Source of the DNA: an uncultured Verrucomicrobia subdivision 3 bacterium
GTDB lineage: Bacteria > Verrucomicrobiota > Verrucomicrobiia > Limisphaerales > UBA11358
Assembly (NCBI GenBank): GCA_903820285.1
Contig: CAIJGS010000040.1
Location: forward strand, 1-38,190
DNA: 38,190 bases
Direction of reading: 5' to 3'
The stretch's first letter is position 1, and every line of letters starts with the position of its first letter. The notes beneath the pieces were generated by a model that was given only the letters and a program-made list of their open reading frames with translations, was not told where the DNA came from and searched no databases. Position numbers and translations under genes: made by a program. Below, piece after piece: positions 2,652-6,138 of the stretch.

Positions 2652-2667
2652 GACCGGTGCTCCGGTC
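2652..2667 (-). terminator. Short hairpin at the end of the multihaem cytochrome gene
   Basis: GACCGG and CCGGTC form a 6-bp stem around a 4-base loop, overlapping the stop codon of the cytochrome gene. On the minus strand it is followed by TTCGACAATACG, which is not a T-run. This is a weak terminator candidate. A second small hairpin (GCGGGT T ACCCGC) lies about 50 bases beyond, before lpxI. Confidence 0.25.
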
Positions 2668-4402
2668 AGATTTTGGGATCGGACTCCTCGTCCGGCAGGC
2701 GTTCGAGGGGATGTTCCTCCTCCTGCCAGTGTTCGGACACGCGGCCATCCAGGCAGGCGGGGTTCAGCGGATAGACATCGGGATCGAACATGACGTGGTA
2801 GAAATGCCAGACCACAATGGCCAGGCAGGCGAGCACGGCTTCGTAGTAATGTATGGTGAGGGCCACATCCACAACCCAGCGCGGCAGAAATTCGGTGACA
2901 TCAATTTTCATCCAGATGACGATGCCGGTGACGCCCATGATGATGGTGCCCCAGATCACCGCCCAATACTCCATTTTCTCAACATAGCCAAACCGGCCAA
3001 TGGGCGGCTTGGTGCGGCGCCAGCCGGCGAGATAGCCAACGGTGGCGATCAGGTCACTCACGTCCTGATGCACGGGCAGCAAATCGAGCGCGAGCCGGCG
3101 GCCTTCCCGGGTGGAAAGGATGTAAATCAGATGATAGAGTCCGACCAGGAGCAGGGTCATGCCGCTGATCCGGTGGGTCCAGCGCCGGAACGGTTCATTG
3201 GAGCCCAGCAGATGGGCAATCCAGGAATCAGAATATTTCAGGGCAAAGCCGGTGAGGGCCAGCACAATAAAACTGCCGGCGAGCAGCGCGTGCTGCCAGC
3301 GCTGCGTGAGGGTCATGCGGGTGATGGGCCGTTTGCGGGTCTGGAAACGGAAGGCCACTTTGCGTGCAAAGATCAGGCCGTTATGGACCACCATGCCGGT
3401 GATCACGCCGAAGATCAGGAGGAGATAAACCTGCCGCACCCAGCCGTTGATTTTGCCACCCACCCCGTCGCCGCCATTGGTGGTGGTGCCGTCCACGTGA
3501 ATTTTGCCGAACGAAAAATTTTCATTCGCGCCGCGATGACACTTGCCACAGGTGTCCACCAGATGAATCCGGTTGATCGTGGAGTTGGTATCGGACGAGG
3601 GCAGGATTTTGTGAAAGCCGTGGCAGCTCGCACAATCAGCGGCAACGGTGGATCCGTATTGCGCCGCAAGGCCGTGATAACTGTTAAAGAAAGTGGCCAC
3701 GCGGTCGGCGGGCAGATTGAACTTGGTGTTGATACGCTCCGAAGAATGGCACTTGGCGCAGACCGTTTCGGAAATCGACATTGGCGAACTGGTCTTAAGC
3801 GATTGGATTTTATGTTCCGAATGGCAATCCGTGCACGTGGGGGCTTCGCGAAACCCGGAGGCGGTGGCCCGACCATGCACGCTCACCGCCACATCGGCGG
3901 CTTCCTTGTCATGACAGGCGCCGCAGGTGGCCGCCTGCTTGGTGAAGTACAGCGGCGAAGCGGGCGACGAAGGCGGCAGGATGCCGTGATTGCCATGGCA
4001 GTCCTGACAGGTGGCCGCGGCGACCTGCCCCGCCTTGGCGGCGAGGCCATGCACGCTGGCACCGTAGCTGTGGGATTGGGTGGCGTGACAGCGGGCGCAA
4101 TCCACCAGAGCGAGCGGGCGATTGTCATCCGGATGTTTCGACGTCACGTCCGCGTGGCAGCTGATGCAGGCATTCGTGTGATGAACGGAGCCGGCCAGCT
4201 TGGTGACGTCCACAAAATAAGAGGTGACCTTGCCGGCGGCATTGGTCACGGTGAGCGTGTTGTCTCCGTGGCACTCCAGGCAGTCCGCATCCGTCATCGG
4301 TTTCGCGGCGGCGGAGAAACCCAGCGCCAGCAGGACCAGCAACAGAGTTGTCCGCAACCACGTGAACCGCGAAATAGATTTCAGATGAGGATGAGCTTTC
4401 AT
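2666..4402 (-). CDS. Nonahaem c-type / dihaem b-type cytochrome, CbcL-like quinol oxidase
   Basis: The 578-residue protein joins an N-terminal multihaem domain to a cytochrome b domain. Counting from the ATG at 4402, a signal or anchor segment at about residues 14-33 is followed by nine CXXCH sites at 41, 79, 102, 132, 160, 190, 215, 257 and 285. Then come five membrane helices (about 323-346, 369-389, 407-429, 477-498, 514-537) containing histidines at 340, 371, 410, 424, 518 and 533/536 that could bind two b haems. In Geobacter, CbcL has this same layout of nine c haems plus a HydC/FdnI-type b domain. It takes electrons from menaquinol toward low-potential extracellular acceptors. The role here is inferred from architecture. 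An ATG at 4435 would add 11 residues; 4402 gives the more typical signal peptide. A monohaem cytochrome c lies upstream. Confidence 0.85.
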   Translation of the reverse strand: MKAHPHLKSISRFTWLRTTLLLVLLALGFSAAAKPMTDADCLECHGDNTLTVTNAAGKVTSYFVDVTKLAGSVHHTNACISCHADVTSKHPDDNRPLALVDCARCHATQSHSYGASVHGLAAKAGQVAAATCQDCHGNHGILPPSSPASPLYFTKQAATCGACHDKEAADVAVSVHGRATASGFREAPTCTDCHSEHKIQSLKTSSPMSISETVCAKCHSSERINTKFNLPADRVATFFNSYHGLAAQYGSTVAADCASCHGFHKILPSSDTNSTINRIHLVDTCGKCHRGANENFSFGKIHVDGTTTNGGDGVGGKINGWVRQVYLLLIFGVITGMVVHNGLIFARKVAFRFQTRKRPITRMTLTQRWQHALLAGSFIVLALTGFALKYSDSWIAHLLGSNEPFRRWTHRISGMTLLLVGLYHLIYILSTREGRRLALDLLPVHQDVSDLIATVGYLAGWRRTKPPIGRFGYVEKMEYWAVIWGTIIMGVTGIVIWMKIDVTEFLPRWVVDVALTIHYYEAVLACLAIVVWHFYHVMFDPDVYPLNPACLDGRVSEHWQEEEHPLERLPDEESDPKI

Positions 4403-4532
4403 TACAACAGACCAGACCGGGGAACGATGAACCATGACAGGTGCGGGAATTCTTTATGCCCGGCAGCAAACAACCGGCAATGCGATGGCGGGAAACGGGC
4501 GATCCAGACTGGAGCTTCGGAAAATCATGACT

Positions 4533-4550
4533 GTGGTACGGCCGTACCAC
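4533..4550. promoter_or_regulatory. Perfect 18-bp palindrome between the two cytochrome genes
   Basis: GTGGTACGGCCGTACCAC is identical to its own reverse complement. It lies in the 209-base gap between the monohaem cytochrome c stop (4612) and the CbcL-like start (4402). It could be an operator for a dimeric regulator of the multihaem gene, or a hairpin in a shared transcript affecting the expression ratio. No T-run follows it, so a classic terminator is less likely. Function is inference. Confidence 0.45.
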
Positions 4551-4611
4551 CGCCCGGAAATACCGGCGCTGCCAGCCCCCTGGACCGCCCGCCCAACCCT
4601 AACCCAAAAGT

Positions 4612-4941
4612 TTACTTCTTAAAGGCGCGCATGTAGGCGATGAGCGCCTTGATGTCGTCGTCCGCGAGGCCCTCGGCAGGTTTCATCAAGGTCTTGCCGT
4701 TTTCGTCCTTGAGCCCTTCTTTGATGGCCTTGGTGGCGGCGTCATCCTTCAGATCCGCCTGAACCTTGGCGTCGGTATAATCTTTCGCGCCGAGGCGCTT
4801 GCCCATTTTGGTGTCGCCCTTGCCATCCGTGCCGTGGCACTTGGCGCAGGCATCTTCGTAGTTGGCCTTGGCACCGGCCGCGCGGACGGACAGGGTGGCC
4901 GCCGCGAGACAGGCAATACCGGCGAGTAACATTTTTTTCAT
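4612..4941 (-). CDS. Periplasmic monohaem cytochrome c (class I)
   Basis: The 109-residue precursor has a Sec signal peptide (MKKMLLAGIACLAAATLSVRA), one haem site CAKCH at residues 32-36 and a likely axial Met at 86 (TLMKPAEGL). The C-terminal helix DDDIKALIAYMRAFKK is standard for the family. The mature protein of about 85 residues is a small soluble electron carrier. It is encoded upstream of, and in the same direction as, the nonahaem-b protein. Shuttling electrons to or from that protein, or to a terminal reductase, is a reasonable inference. The 209-base gap with a palindrome means it may be transcribed separately. Confidence 0.92.
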   Translation of the reverse strand: MKKMLLAGIACLAAATLSVRAAGAKANYEDACAKCHGTDGKGDTKMGKRLGAKDYTDAKVQADLKDDAATKAIKEGLKDENGKTLMKPAEGLADDDIKALIAYMRAFKK

Positions 4942-5158: not shown

Positions 5159-6010
5159 TCAACCTTTTGCCTCTGCATCCTGCAAATCTTTCAGCGTTTT
5201 GCCCTCCTTGGTTTTCCAGTCTACACGCCCATTCGCAGCCCTTCCTTGGACGACACCAGCGGCGGTAGAAGGTGACGCAAATACGTAGTCTTGGGCAAAG
5301 ACAAATATATCGCCATCGGCTTTCAGTACGCCATTTTCCACCAGTGCGGACCGCAATTCTTTAAGGTAAGCATGACATGATGGAACCTCTGTTTTAACTG
5401 CGCCACTCCCAGCGCGCACCACAAATCCATCTTGTGTTTCCAAGCCTTGCGCCTTAATGCCCTTACTAGTTATGAATAGTTGTTTCGCTTTAGTCTGCAC
5501 CGCAGTTGTTGCAGTAAAAACACTCAATCCAAGGATTGGAAAACAGAGAAGCATTTCCCCAAGGAATCCTTCTGCATCCGCCATATCAGCTTCGGACAAT
5601 GACGGCAAGGTAGGGGCATTGCCATTATCCAATAAACAGCGCTTTGCCAAACCGGCCAAGTCAATCAAACGTGACTCGATAAACTGTACATGAGCCTTGT
5701 TCAAATTGTCATCCTTACTGGTGAAAGCCACACAACTGGTCCAAAAATCTTTTTTGGATGCATGCTGTTCGAGCCGGGGTTTAATTGGGTCTCCTTCCCC
5801 GACGTATATTCGCGGCAAGCCAGATTCTTCTGGCGGACCAACGAGCACATAAACACCGGTCCGGGTCAATTCGCGACGGGCCTTTGCTTCGCTTATAAGT
5901 GCGCGCGGTATGACTATGCCAGCCCCGCTCCAATTTGACTTTTCAATTGTGCGCAATCCATCGGGATCACCCCCGGGAAGAAAAATTTTGATCGAATAAG
6001 GCTTATTCAT
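5159..6010 (-). CDS. GIY-YIG nuclease-like protein with C-terminal DUF4357
   Basis: The 283-residue protein (counting from the ATG at 6010) has a GIY-YIG core: GVYVLVG and RIYVGEG supply the two motif strands. An Arg in KPRLEQH and a Glu in FIESRLI match the usual catalytic positions. The C-terminus, FASPSTAAGVVQGRAANGRV followed by DWKTKEGKTLKDLQD, is a DUF4357 domain, commonly attached to this nuclease type. Such proteins occur near mobile and defence genes, but their role is not settled. Local G+C is low (23 of 60 in row 5461-5520), suggesting acquisition. An in-frame start at 6046 would add 12 residues with no evident family match. It stands alone, about 220 bases from the cytochrome c gene. 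Confidence 0.8.
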   Translation of the reverse strand: MNKPYSIKIFLPGGDPDGLRTIEKSNWSGAGIVIPRALISEAKARRELTRTGVYVLVGPPEESGLPRIYVGEGDPIKPRLEQHASKKDFWTSCVAFTSKDDNLNKAHVQFIESRLIDLAGLAKRCLLDNGNAPTLPSLSEADMADAEGFLGEMLLCFPILGLSVFTATTAVQTKAKQLFITSKGIKAQGLETQDGFVVRAGSGAVKTEVPSCHAYLKELRSALVENGVLKADGDIFVFAQDYVFASPSTAAGVVQGRAANGRVDWKTKEGKTLKDLQDAEAKG

Positions 6011-6138
6011 TGGCTGACATTTTTTCTTGGCCTCGGAACCAATCATGGCAAAGGAAATAATGTCGGCAAAAGCATGTAGCGAAGGGAGGCATTGGGAAAG
6101 CGGAAAATGCCGTTTAAAAATTTGGCCCGTTTGGCCTC

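Follow-up and report, generated by a model that had tools for sequence, protein, structure and literature searches.

Cytochromes of the CbcL/MtoC/MtrH kind carry 3-23 CX2CH motifs in their N-terminal half and mostly six transmembrane (TM) motifs, with five in four homologues and four in one (PMC6295460; statements on cited papers refer throughout to the parts of their text covered here). Geobacter CbcL has nine bis-His haems, ten conserved additional histidines and no conserved methionine (PMC9129911). In Gallionella, Dechloromonas, Rhodoferax and Sideroxydans, the CbcL-type b/c cytochromes MtoC and MtrH are accompanied by a porin-cytochrome conduit as well as a monohaem cytochrome. MtoD is a monohaem periplasmic shuttle (PMC4412085). 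ImcH proteins are marked by three N-terminal TM helices, an atypical CX3CH motif and 5-9 CX2CH motifs (6-10 in the abstract) (PMC6295460). Here, we describe CbcL9, a CbcL-like cytochrome b/c encoded on a 38,190-nucleotide stretch of DNA (the window) from an uncultured Verrucomicrobia subdivision 3 bacterium of the order Limisphaerales. The window covers contig C40 (CAIJGS010000040.1) in full; the assembly to which it belongs totals 5.25 Mb in 395 contigs and is 90.8% complete.

Parts of this picture have been reported or proposed before for Verrucomicrobia. Zhong and Shi reported four CbcL-family homologues and one ImcH homologue in the phylum in 2018 (PMC6295460), and He et al. proposed in 2017, from six Trout Bog Verrucomicrobia genomes, a conduit of porin and multihaem proteins that passes electrons to humics (PMC5615132), a proposal extended in 2019 (PMC6344600); CbcL- and ImcH-like genes are not mentioned in the text of He et al. 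as covered here. The initial annotation of the window had called the group rarely considered electroactive, which is correct for "rarely" and would be wrong for "never", since the capacity has been proposed since 2017.

We found that CbcL9 very probably belongs to the CbcL/MtoC/MtrH kind. That it serves extracellular electron transfer, acting as an inner-membrane quinol:multihaem-cytochrome oxidoreductase that feeds a conduit for extracellular reduction, has in our estimate a probability of about two in three. The features in the window are as follows.

2666..4435, minus strand: CbcL9, 589 amino acids, identified from the open reading frame, nine CXXCH motifs with five C-terminal TM helices, Pfam, a structural model and relatives
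3476..4309, minus strand: periplasmic nine-haem c domain (residues ~43-320), identified from column conservation in the alignment
2669..3340, minus strand: FdnI-fold di-haem b membrane domain (residues ~366-589)
4612..4941, minus strand: monohaem class I cytochrome c, 109 amino acids, identified from PF00034 and conservation of Met86

The nine-haem cytochrome and its monohaem neighbour

The initial annotation read nine CXXCH motifs followed by a five-helix, histidine-bearing cytochrome b domain in one chain, and the open reading frame, hydropathy, model and invariant histidines all bear this out. Translation starts at either Met1 or Met12, and the hydropathy profile comprises an N-terminal signal or anchor segment followed by five TM segments. 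The AlphaFold model places five long C-terminal helices at residues 325-362, 376-400, 414-441, 484-508 and 519-550. This domain matches PF01292 in Pfam (48.6 bits, cut-off 30.1), and a fold search with the predicted model returned the FdnI fold. Four membrane histidines (382, 421, 529 and 544), invariant in 47/47 aligned relatives, align with FdnI His 18, 57, 155 and 169, which we take to be the b-haem ligands.

Conservation in the periplasmic domain was scored over 30 nine-haem rows of the alignment, 47 rows in all. Nine distal histidines are conserved (85, 101, 129, 150, 187, 208, 254, 275 and 313), eight of them in 30/30 nine-haem rows and His101 in 90%, and no methionine is conserved in the domain in the same alignment. 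This pattern suggests that all nine c haems are bis-His. The c domain also matches PDB chain 28pb_A ("Cytochrome c", 278 residues; E 1.2e-9). Chance can be excluded as the source of the CbcL9 observation: 7608 of the 7999 candidates scored match CbcL9 at E <= 1e-3 and the 120 matches listed are 64-100% identical across at least 90% of the query. A search of a plasmid collection for a named CbcL9 relative gave no match.

To place the b domain, we built a tree of 131 rows. Of 146 candidates, 16 were left out because they were duplicated or fragmentary, and E. coli HyaC was included despite missing the profile cut-off. The 49 near nine-haem proteins, verrucomicrobial by title or else untitled or unnamed near relatives, form one clade (bootstrap/Shimodaira-Hasegawa-like approximate likelihood ratio test, 100/100), and 33 eleven-haem proteins form a separate clade (91/82). 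CbcL9 groups with cytochromes b that are either fused to multihaem proteins or have genes for such proteins next to their own. The phylogeny proposed in the initial annotation sets CbcL9 far from FdnI and HyaC, which lie outside on very long branches; each of these two is represented by a single sequence, and the tree includes neither a nitrite- or tetrathionate-linked family nor Geobacter CbcL. Support is low for most of the deep branches in between (bootstrap 24-57 for five of them), and the outgroup branches leave the root unsure.

Compared with the published description of G. sulfurreducens CbcL, the likeness extends to a single chain, nine c haems with conserved histidines as second ligands, an FdnI-like di-haem b domain and an ImcH-like protein in the same genome (PMC6295460, PMC9129911). 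The claim that CbcL9 reproduces the Geobacter layout stood for haem count, ligand pattern, fold and gene company; it did not for helix number, which is five in CbcL9 and six in Geobacter, five being within the published range of the family. Unlike the Geobacter system, CbcL9 has an eleven-haem paralogue, forms its own clade (100/100), and is accompanied by a monohaem class I cytochrome; no three-haem, PpcA-like frame was found in the window (frames of at least 60 amino acids) or in the C353 locus of the same genome described below (at least 50 amino acids). The annotated reading of CbcL9 as a probable CbcL-like quinol oxidase, or quinone reductase, is in accord with its layout, fold, haem ligands and accompanying genes.

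The monohaem cytochrome c noted just upstream is indeed there, 176 bases upstream of the longest CbcL9 frame and on the same strand; these two are the only frames of at least 60 amino acids in the window with a CXXCH motif. Its Met86 is kept in 34/34 aligned rows, so that His/Met ligation is predicted, which differs from the His/His ligation of MtoD (PMC4412085), and the protein fails to qualify as an MtoD on this point. It is possibly a soluble electron shuttle.

A candidate conduit on a second contig and its relatives

As the initial annotation had stated, the window, although it spans all of C40, holds no porin-cytochrome conduit: porin profile matches in this genome lie on contig C353 only. 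Paired-CXXCH domains (E <= 0.001) are likewise confined to C353 (ten) and C40 (one). We found C353 (21,266 bases, 20,000 of them read; locus L077) through a second CbcL-like gene in a search of the genome for cytochrome b561 domains; the genome search suggested earlier yielded a candidate porin-cytochrome cluster together with an ImcH-like gene. The genes of the cluster all lie on one strand. They include a 113-residue monohaem cytochrome of the same family as that in the window, the second CbcL-like protein (a 742-residue b/c cytochrome with 11 CXXCH motifs), a 4-haem protein, an NHL-repeat protein and the following.

L077:15641-17101, minus strand: ImcH-like protein, 486 amino acids, with three TM segments, one CX3CH and six CX2CH motifs
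L077:11830-12960, minus strand: hemA, glutamyl-tRNA reductase (369.2 bits, cut-off 209.55)

With TM segments at residues 12, 51 and 100 and the CX3CH motif at 132, the 486-residue protein matches the published ImcH hallmark; in its cluster, CX3CH occurs in 23/24 members and three TM segments in 21/24. A NapC/NrfH-like (PF03264) reading of this protein was replaced once the CX3CH motif was seen.

A haem-free 676-residue protein on C353 has no Pfam match and no significant sequence match in the PDB. Its model (predicted local distance difference test 86.9, predicted template modelling score 0.74) is a barrel of 28 long strands by our own count, and the protein is predicted to form a large beta-barrel in the outer membrane, with at least 20 strands. 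Fold searches list MtrB, no higher than many other large barrels; because so many match equally well, we claim only a large outer-membrane barrel and not homology to MtrB. The only NCBIfam match, to a phage tail tube over residues 390-471 (20.9 bits against a cut-off of 60), was disregarded. The barrel family comprises 97 proteins, this one included, among the 7999 candidates scored. The barrel gene is flanked by genes for two multihaem cytochromes. One has 13 haems, is DmsE-like, although its 147.2 bits do not reach the cut-off (192.2), and would probably be periplasmic; the other has 11 haems, matches an MtrC/MtrF-type domain (PF22113, 54.2 bits, cut-off 30) and would probably be the outer cytochrome. 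Unlike the conduits of the Mto and Mtr systems, that on C353 thus has a porin lacking Pfam or significant PDB sequence matches, and a plug of 13 haems. The cluster of He et al. shares the phylum, a porin with at least 20 predicted transmembrane motifs and clustered multihaem proteins, there periplasmic and in several cases also extracellular; its periplasmic partner has eight haems (PMC5615132), whereas the present one has 13, and those in the relatives that we fetched 9 to 27.

Gene order in relatives ties CbcL9 to this set. One contig of genome G092 (L125) carries, in succession, a monohaem c gene, ImcH, CbcL9 (63% identical), hemA, 4-haem, NHL, 9-haem, porin and NHL genes and the start of an 11-haem gene cut by the contig end. 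L020 and L023 carry CbcL9, hemA, 4-haem, NHL, multihaem and porin genes in that order, and on C353 hemA comes after the 11-haem CbcL-like gene. In 5/7 porin clusters fetched from relatives, a multihaem gene with 9 to 27 motifs precedes the barrel gene. The nearest named relative, a Verrucomicrobia subdivision 3 genome (G116; L003, with a 97% identical CbcL9), has CbcL9 and its monohaem c on C119 (100,459 bases), and on C159 (114,730 bases) a monohaem c, ImcH (98.6%), 11-haem CbcL-like (96.8%), hemA, 4-haem, 13-haem, porin (40.6%), NHL and 11-haem genes. The simplest reading would be that CbcL9 departed from the cluster in the focal lineage. Between these two genomes, the inner-membrane parts are 97-99% identical, and the outer parts much less so (porin 40.6%, 13-haem 55%, 4-haem 44%, 11-haem 75%); the outer parts diverge so much further that fast change or exchange of them seems likely.

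The near group comprised 46 loci, 44 of them with an intact CbcL9 gene. Among these 44, the 11-haem paralogue lies within 3 kb in 31, an ImcH-like gene within 8 kb in 13, a monohaem c relative within 8 kb in 13, hemA within 4 kb in 11 and the porin within 8 kb in 5. These counts are lower bounds, because flanks reached at most ~8 kb and were often shorter; those for the monohaem c are so also because gene calling missed short frames, such as the 113-residue gene on C353.

Several further observations concern these clusters. The hemA gene lies in or beside the cytochrome cluster in L077, L005, L006, L007, L009, L010, L014, L015, L020, L023, L024, L046, L125, L130, L138 and L147, and its recurrence in many relatives suggests that haem supply is tied to haem demand. 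Very large multihaem proteins stand beside the conduit at L132:1606-5583 (minus strand), L137:13494-17492 (plus strand) and L134:9935-12460 (minus strand), including one that has 23 haems in ~1330 amino acids and spans the membrane with four TM segments, and a plug cytochrome expanded to 27 haems. Proteins that look secreted and mostly have 8-9 haems are encoded at L005:6456-8963 (plus strand) and in protein cluster c4, PKD domains being present in one of them; none of this type was found in the C353 cluster. Side-by-side pairs of CbcL-like b/c cytochromes recur in loci of Ignavibacteriota, Acidobacteriota and Planctomycetota. In the acidobacterial loci L052 and L055, a 10-haem gene lies a few genes from the CbcL-like gene, that of L052 encoding a DmsE/MtrA-type decahaem protein (266.8 bits, cut-off 192.2), and a haem-free protein of 860-920 amino acids without a Pfam match is encoded between the two.

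The surroundings of CbcL9 in the window include LpxI downstream, and DUF4357, M13 peptidase and GH115 proteins upstream, with type II secretion genes and a GH106 rhamnosidase farther along C40. From the GH115, GH106 and type II secretion genes, the organism looks like a polysaccharide degrader. The DUF4357 gene (5159-6046, minus strand; PF14267, 74.9 bits; phrog_12629, E 8.4e-75) lies between the monohaem c and M13 peptidase genes, which adjoin without it in the 97% relative; it therefore looks inserted here or lost there. A perfect 18-base palindrome at 4533-4550 separates the monohaem c gene from that of CbcL9. We dropped it as a possible binding site for a regulator: its 16-base core occurs nowhere else in the genome, even with one mismatch allowed, and the palindrome is missing from L077 at up to three mismatches and, as an exact match, absent from all loci fetched up to then except pieces of C40 itself.

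Distribution, proposed pathway and rival explanations

We examined 116 genomes of the order and found a CbcL9 orthologue in 29 (one, in G074, a fragment), an ImcH-like gene in 52 and the porin family in 13. For CbcL9, 35 raw matches were reduced to orthologues of at least 50% identity, the six dropped being other cytochromes of the wider family; for the porin, 14 became 13 when G051, matched across 80 residues only, was removed. By Fisher tests, which take no account of kinship, CbcL9 co-occurs with ImcH (27/29, against 25/87 of the genomes without CbcL9; p 5e-10) and with the porin (9/29 against 4/87; p 4e-4), as does the porin with ImcH (13/13 against 39/103; p 1e-5). Of the 44 genomes behind the named loci, all picked for CbcL9 presence, 43 have an ImcH-like match (counting an 85-residue fragment in G159 and a gene in two pieces in G155) and 16 have the porin, after G138 (79 residues matched) was dropped from a raw 17. 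Some loci encode other large multihaem secreted proteins (cluster c4) next door. Three other genomes of the same genus include two with an ImcH-like gene and none with CbcL9 or the porin.

A link between CbcL9 and a conduit of this kind is suggested by the synteny in L125, L020 and L023 and by its co-occurrence with the ImcH-like gene; the decahaem gene near the CbcL-like gene in L052 and the failure to find formate dehydrogenase, NiFe hydrogenase or NrfA partners point the same way. In the proposed pathway, CbcL9 would take electrons from menaquinol at its two b haems and pass them through the nine bis-His c haems in the periplasm; they would then be handed, directly or through the neighbouring monohaem c, to the C353 conduit of 4-haem protein, 13-haem protein, predicted barrel and 11-haem outer cytochrome, which would reduce extracellular humic quinones or Fe(III) once oxygen runs out. 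Here, we infer the quinol donor, outward direction, monohaem shuttle, C353 partnership, locations of the conduit parts and acceptor. If the quinone site faces the cytoplasm, like that of FdnI, electrons would pass to the periplasm without pumping and might even cost membrane potential. Such energetics would suit low-potential acceptors, and CbcL in Geobacter is genetically tied to these (PMC9129911).

Several observations weigh against this assignment. In the focal genome CbcL9 stands apart from the conduit cluster, and the same split is found in the 97% relative; the L125 contig has no 11-haem CbcL-like gene, and two of the seven fetched porin clusters (L132 and L137) have no multihaem plug gene beside the barrel. 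This porin family is absent from 20 of the 29 CbcL9 genomes of the order and from 28 of the 44 named-locus genomes, including those of L004 and L041, the nearest in the tree after L003, and 4 of the 13 porin genomes have no CbcL9. Kinship is uncorrected in the association tests, and the basis throughout is an incomplete assembly, its genes and predicted models. Finally, haem-copper oxidases and a locus resembling that of alternative complex III (ACIII) make aerobic respiration the evident mode of this cell.

The last point underlies the explanation that CbcL9 passes electrons from quinol through the monohaem c to a cbb3 or other haem-copper terminal oxidase, as an alternative to bc1 or ACIII and with no extracellular step. 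The genome has four haem-copper oxidase matches (C126, C124, C277 and C269): a cbb3 oxidase on C126 (1244.4 bits, cut-off 1080), a cytochrome c oxidase subunit I on C124 (568.9 bits, below the cut-off of 670.75), a CcoN-like protein far under the cut-off within the ACIII-like locus on C277, and a 770-residue protein of the family on C269 (L100:811-3123, plus strand; PF00115, 207.9 bits). The cell can thus probably respire oxygen. The C269 protein has no NCBIfam name and no neighbouring cytochrome c frame; as a guess, it could be a quinol-dependent nitric oxide reductase. An oxidase route would also account for a His/Met class I cytochrome adjoining CbcL9, for the lack of this porin family in most CbcL9 genomes, and for L004, from a genome that lacks the porin, where a monohaem c gene directly precedes CbcL9 and only 3 bases separate it from the longest CbcL9 frame. 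We nevertheless judge it unlikely. It leaves unaccounted for the near-constant company of ImcH-like genes (27/29 and 43/44) and the synteny of CbcL9 with multihaem, NHL and porin genes, and monohaem genes of the same family also lie within the C353 and G116 clusters. Moreover, nine bis-His haems are of low potential and a poor match for feeding an oxidase.

Electrons could also run inward, along the lines of the Mto pathway: Fe(II) or reduced humics would supply them, CbcL9 would use them to reduce quinone, and the monohaem c would play an MtoD-like role. MtoC is homologous to CbcL, members of the family have been connected with electron flow in either direction, and mtoC is grouped with mtoA, mtoB and mtoD in Gallionella capsiferriformans (PMC6295460); the monohaem shuttle MtoD offers a parallel (PMC4412085). 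However, the genome resembles that of a polysaccharide degrader, with GH115 and GH106 in the window, the ImcH family present here has so far been tied to quinol oxidation only (PMC6295460), and bis-His MtoD differs from a window cytochrome with a conserved methionine. Gene content like that of a heterotroph, together with the ImcH-like partner, makes outward flow the likelier direction, and we regard uptake as distinctly unlikely.

Many of the CbcL9 relatives listed bear the database name "formate dehydrogenase gamma subunit", and CbcL9 resembles the E. coli formate dehydrogenase N gamma subunit FdnI in b-domain fold and histidine positions and matches TIGR01583 at 63.2 bits. This score lies below the cut-off of 115.85, FdnI has no c haems whereas CbcL9 has nine fused to it, and FdnI and HyaC are far off in the tree. 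Nor was a formate dehydrogenase partner found in the assembly: the only PF00384 match is NuoG-like (430.6 bits of 470.05) in a nuo-like locus, although degenerate members can escape this search, as did an ACIII-type molybdopterin-like protein on C277 in which the TAT-variant domain was found. No NiFe hydrogenase was found in the 91% complete assembly. We therefore rejected the reading of CbcL9 as a formate dehydrogenase or hydrogenase b subunit, which is highly improbable. The 91% complete assembly likewise gave no convincing NrfA. Of two partial PF02335 matches, we rejected the C89 protein (738 amino acids; L097:7537-9753, plus strand), which has eight CXXCH motifs and a tetratricopeptide-repeat-like C-terminal part, and the C277 protein, which has five CXXCH motifs and lies in the ACIII-like locus. 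The check for a periplasmic terminal reductase partner raised in the initial annotation thus came out negative; none of the soluble-acceptor reductases searched for explains CbcL9, and the search did not extend to every kind of reductase.

Implications for the order

Collectively, our findings support the idea that CbcL9 feeds an extracellular conduit. A wider proposition is more tentative and, we think, somewhat short of even odds: an electron-export module across the order, consisting of an ImcH-like protein, a 9- and 11-haem CbcL-like pair, His/Met monohaem shuttles and, in some, a barrel with a 9-27-haem plug, with which facultative polysaccharide degraders might respire humics or minerals, the two CbcL forms being tuned to different potentials. 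Its share in the 116 genomes would be a quarter by the 9-haem gene or 45% by the ImcH-like gene. Both components had been put forward earlier for Verrucomicrobia, CbcL homologues in 2018 and conduits of porin and cytochrome in 2017 and 2019. In the literature searched, neither the ImcH-CbcL9-CbcL11-monohaem-barrel arrangement nor its distribution across the order came up, and we found no work on Limisphaerales with extracellular electron transfer, few subscription papers being covered.

If the reading of CbcL9 is true, sugar-degrading Verrucomicrobia could carry the oxidation of plant polymers to completion in the absence of oxygen, with humic substances as electron acceptors. Less carbon would then pass to fermentation and methanogenesis, as He et al. 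suggested in 2017 (PMC5615132). The gene set provides a precise, testable order of electron carriers. Quinone oxidoreductases of this kind are named among the best metagenome markers for extracellular electron transfer (PMC12977616), and the ImcH/CbcL pair would serve as a marker for finding such organisms.

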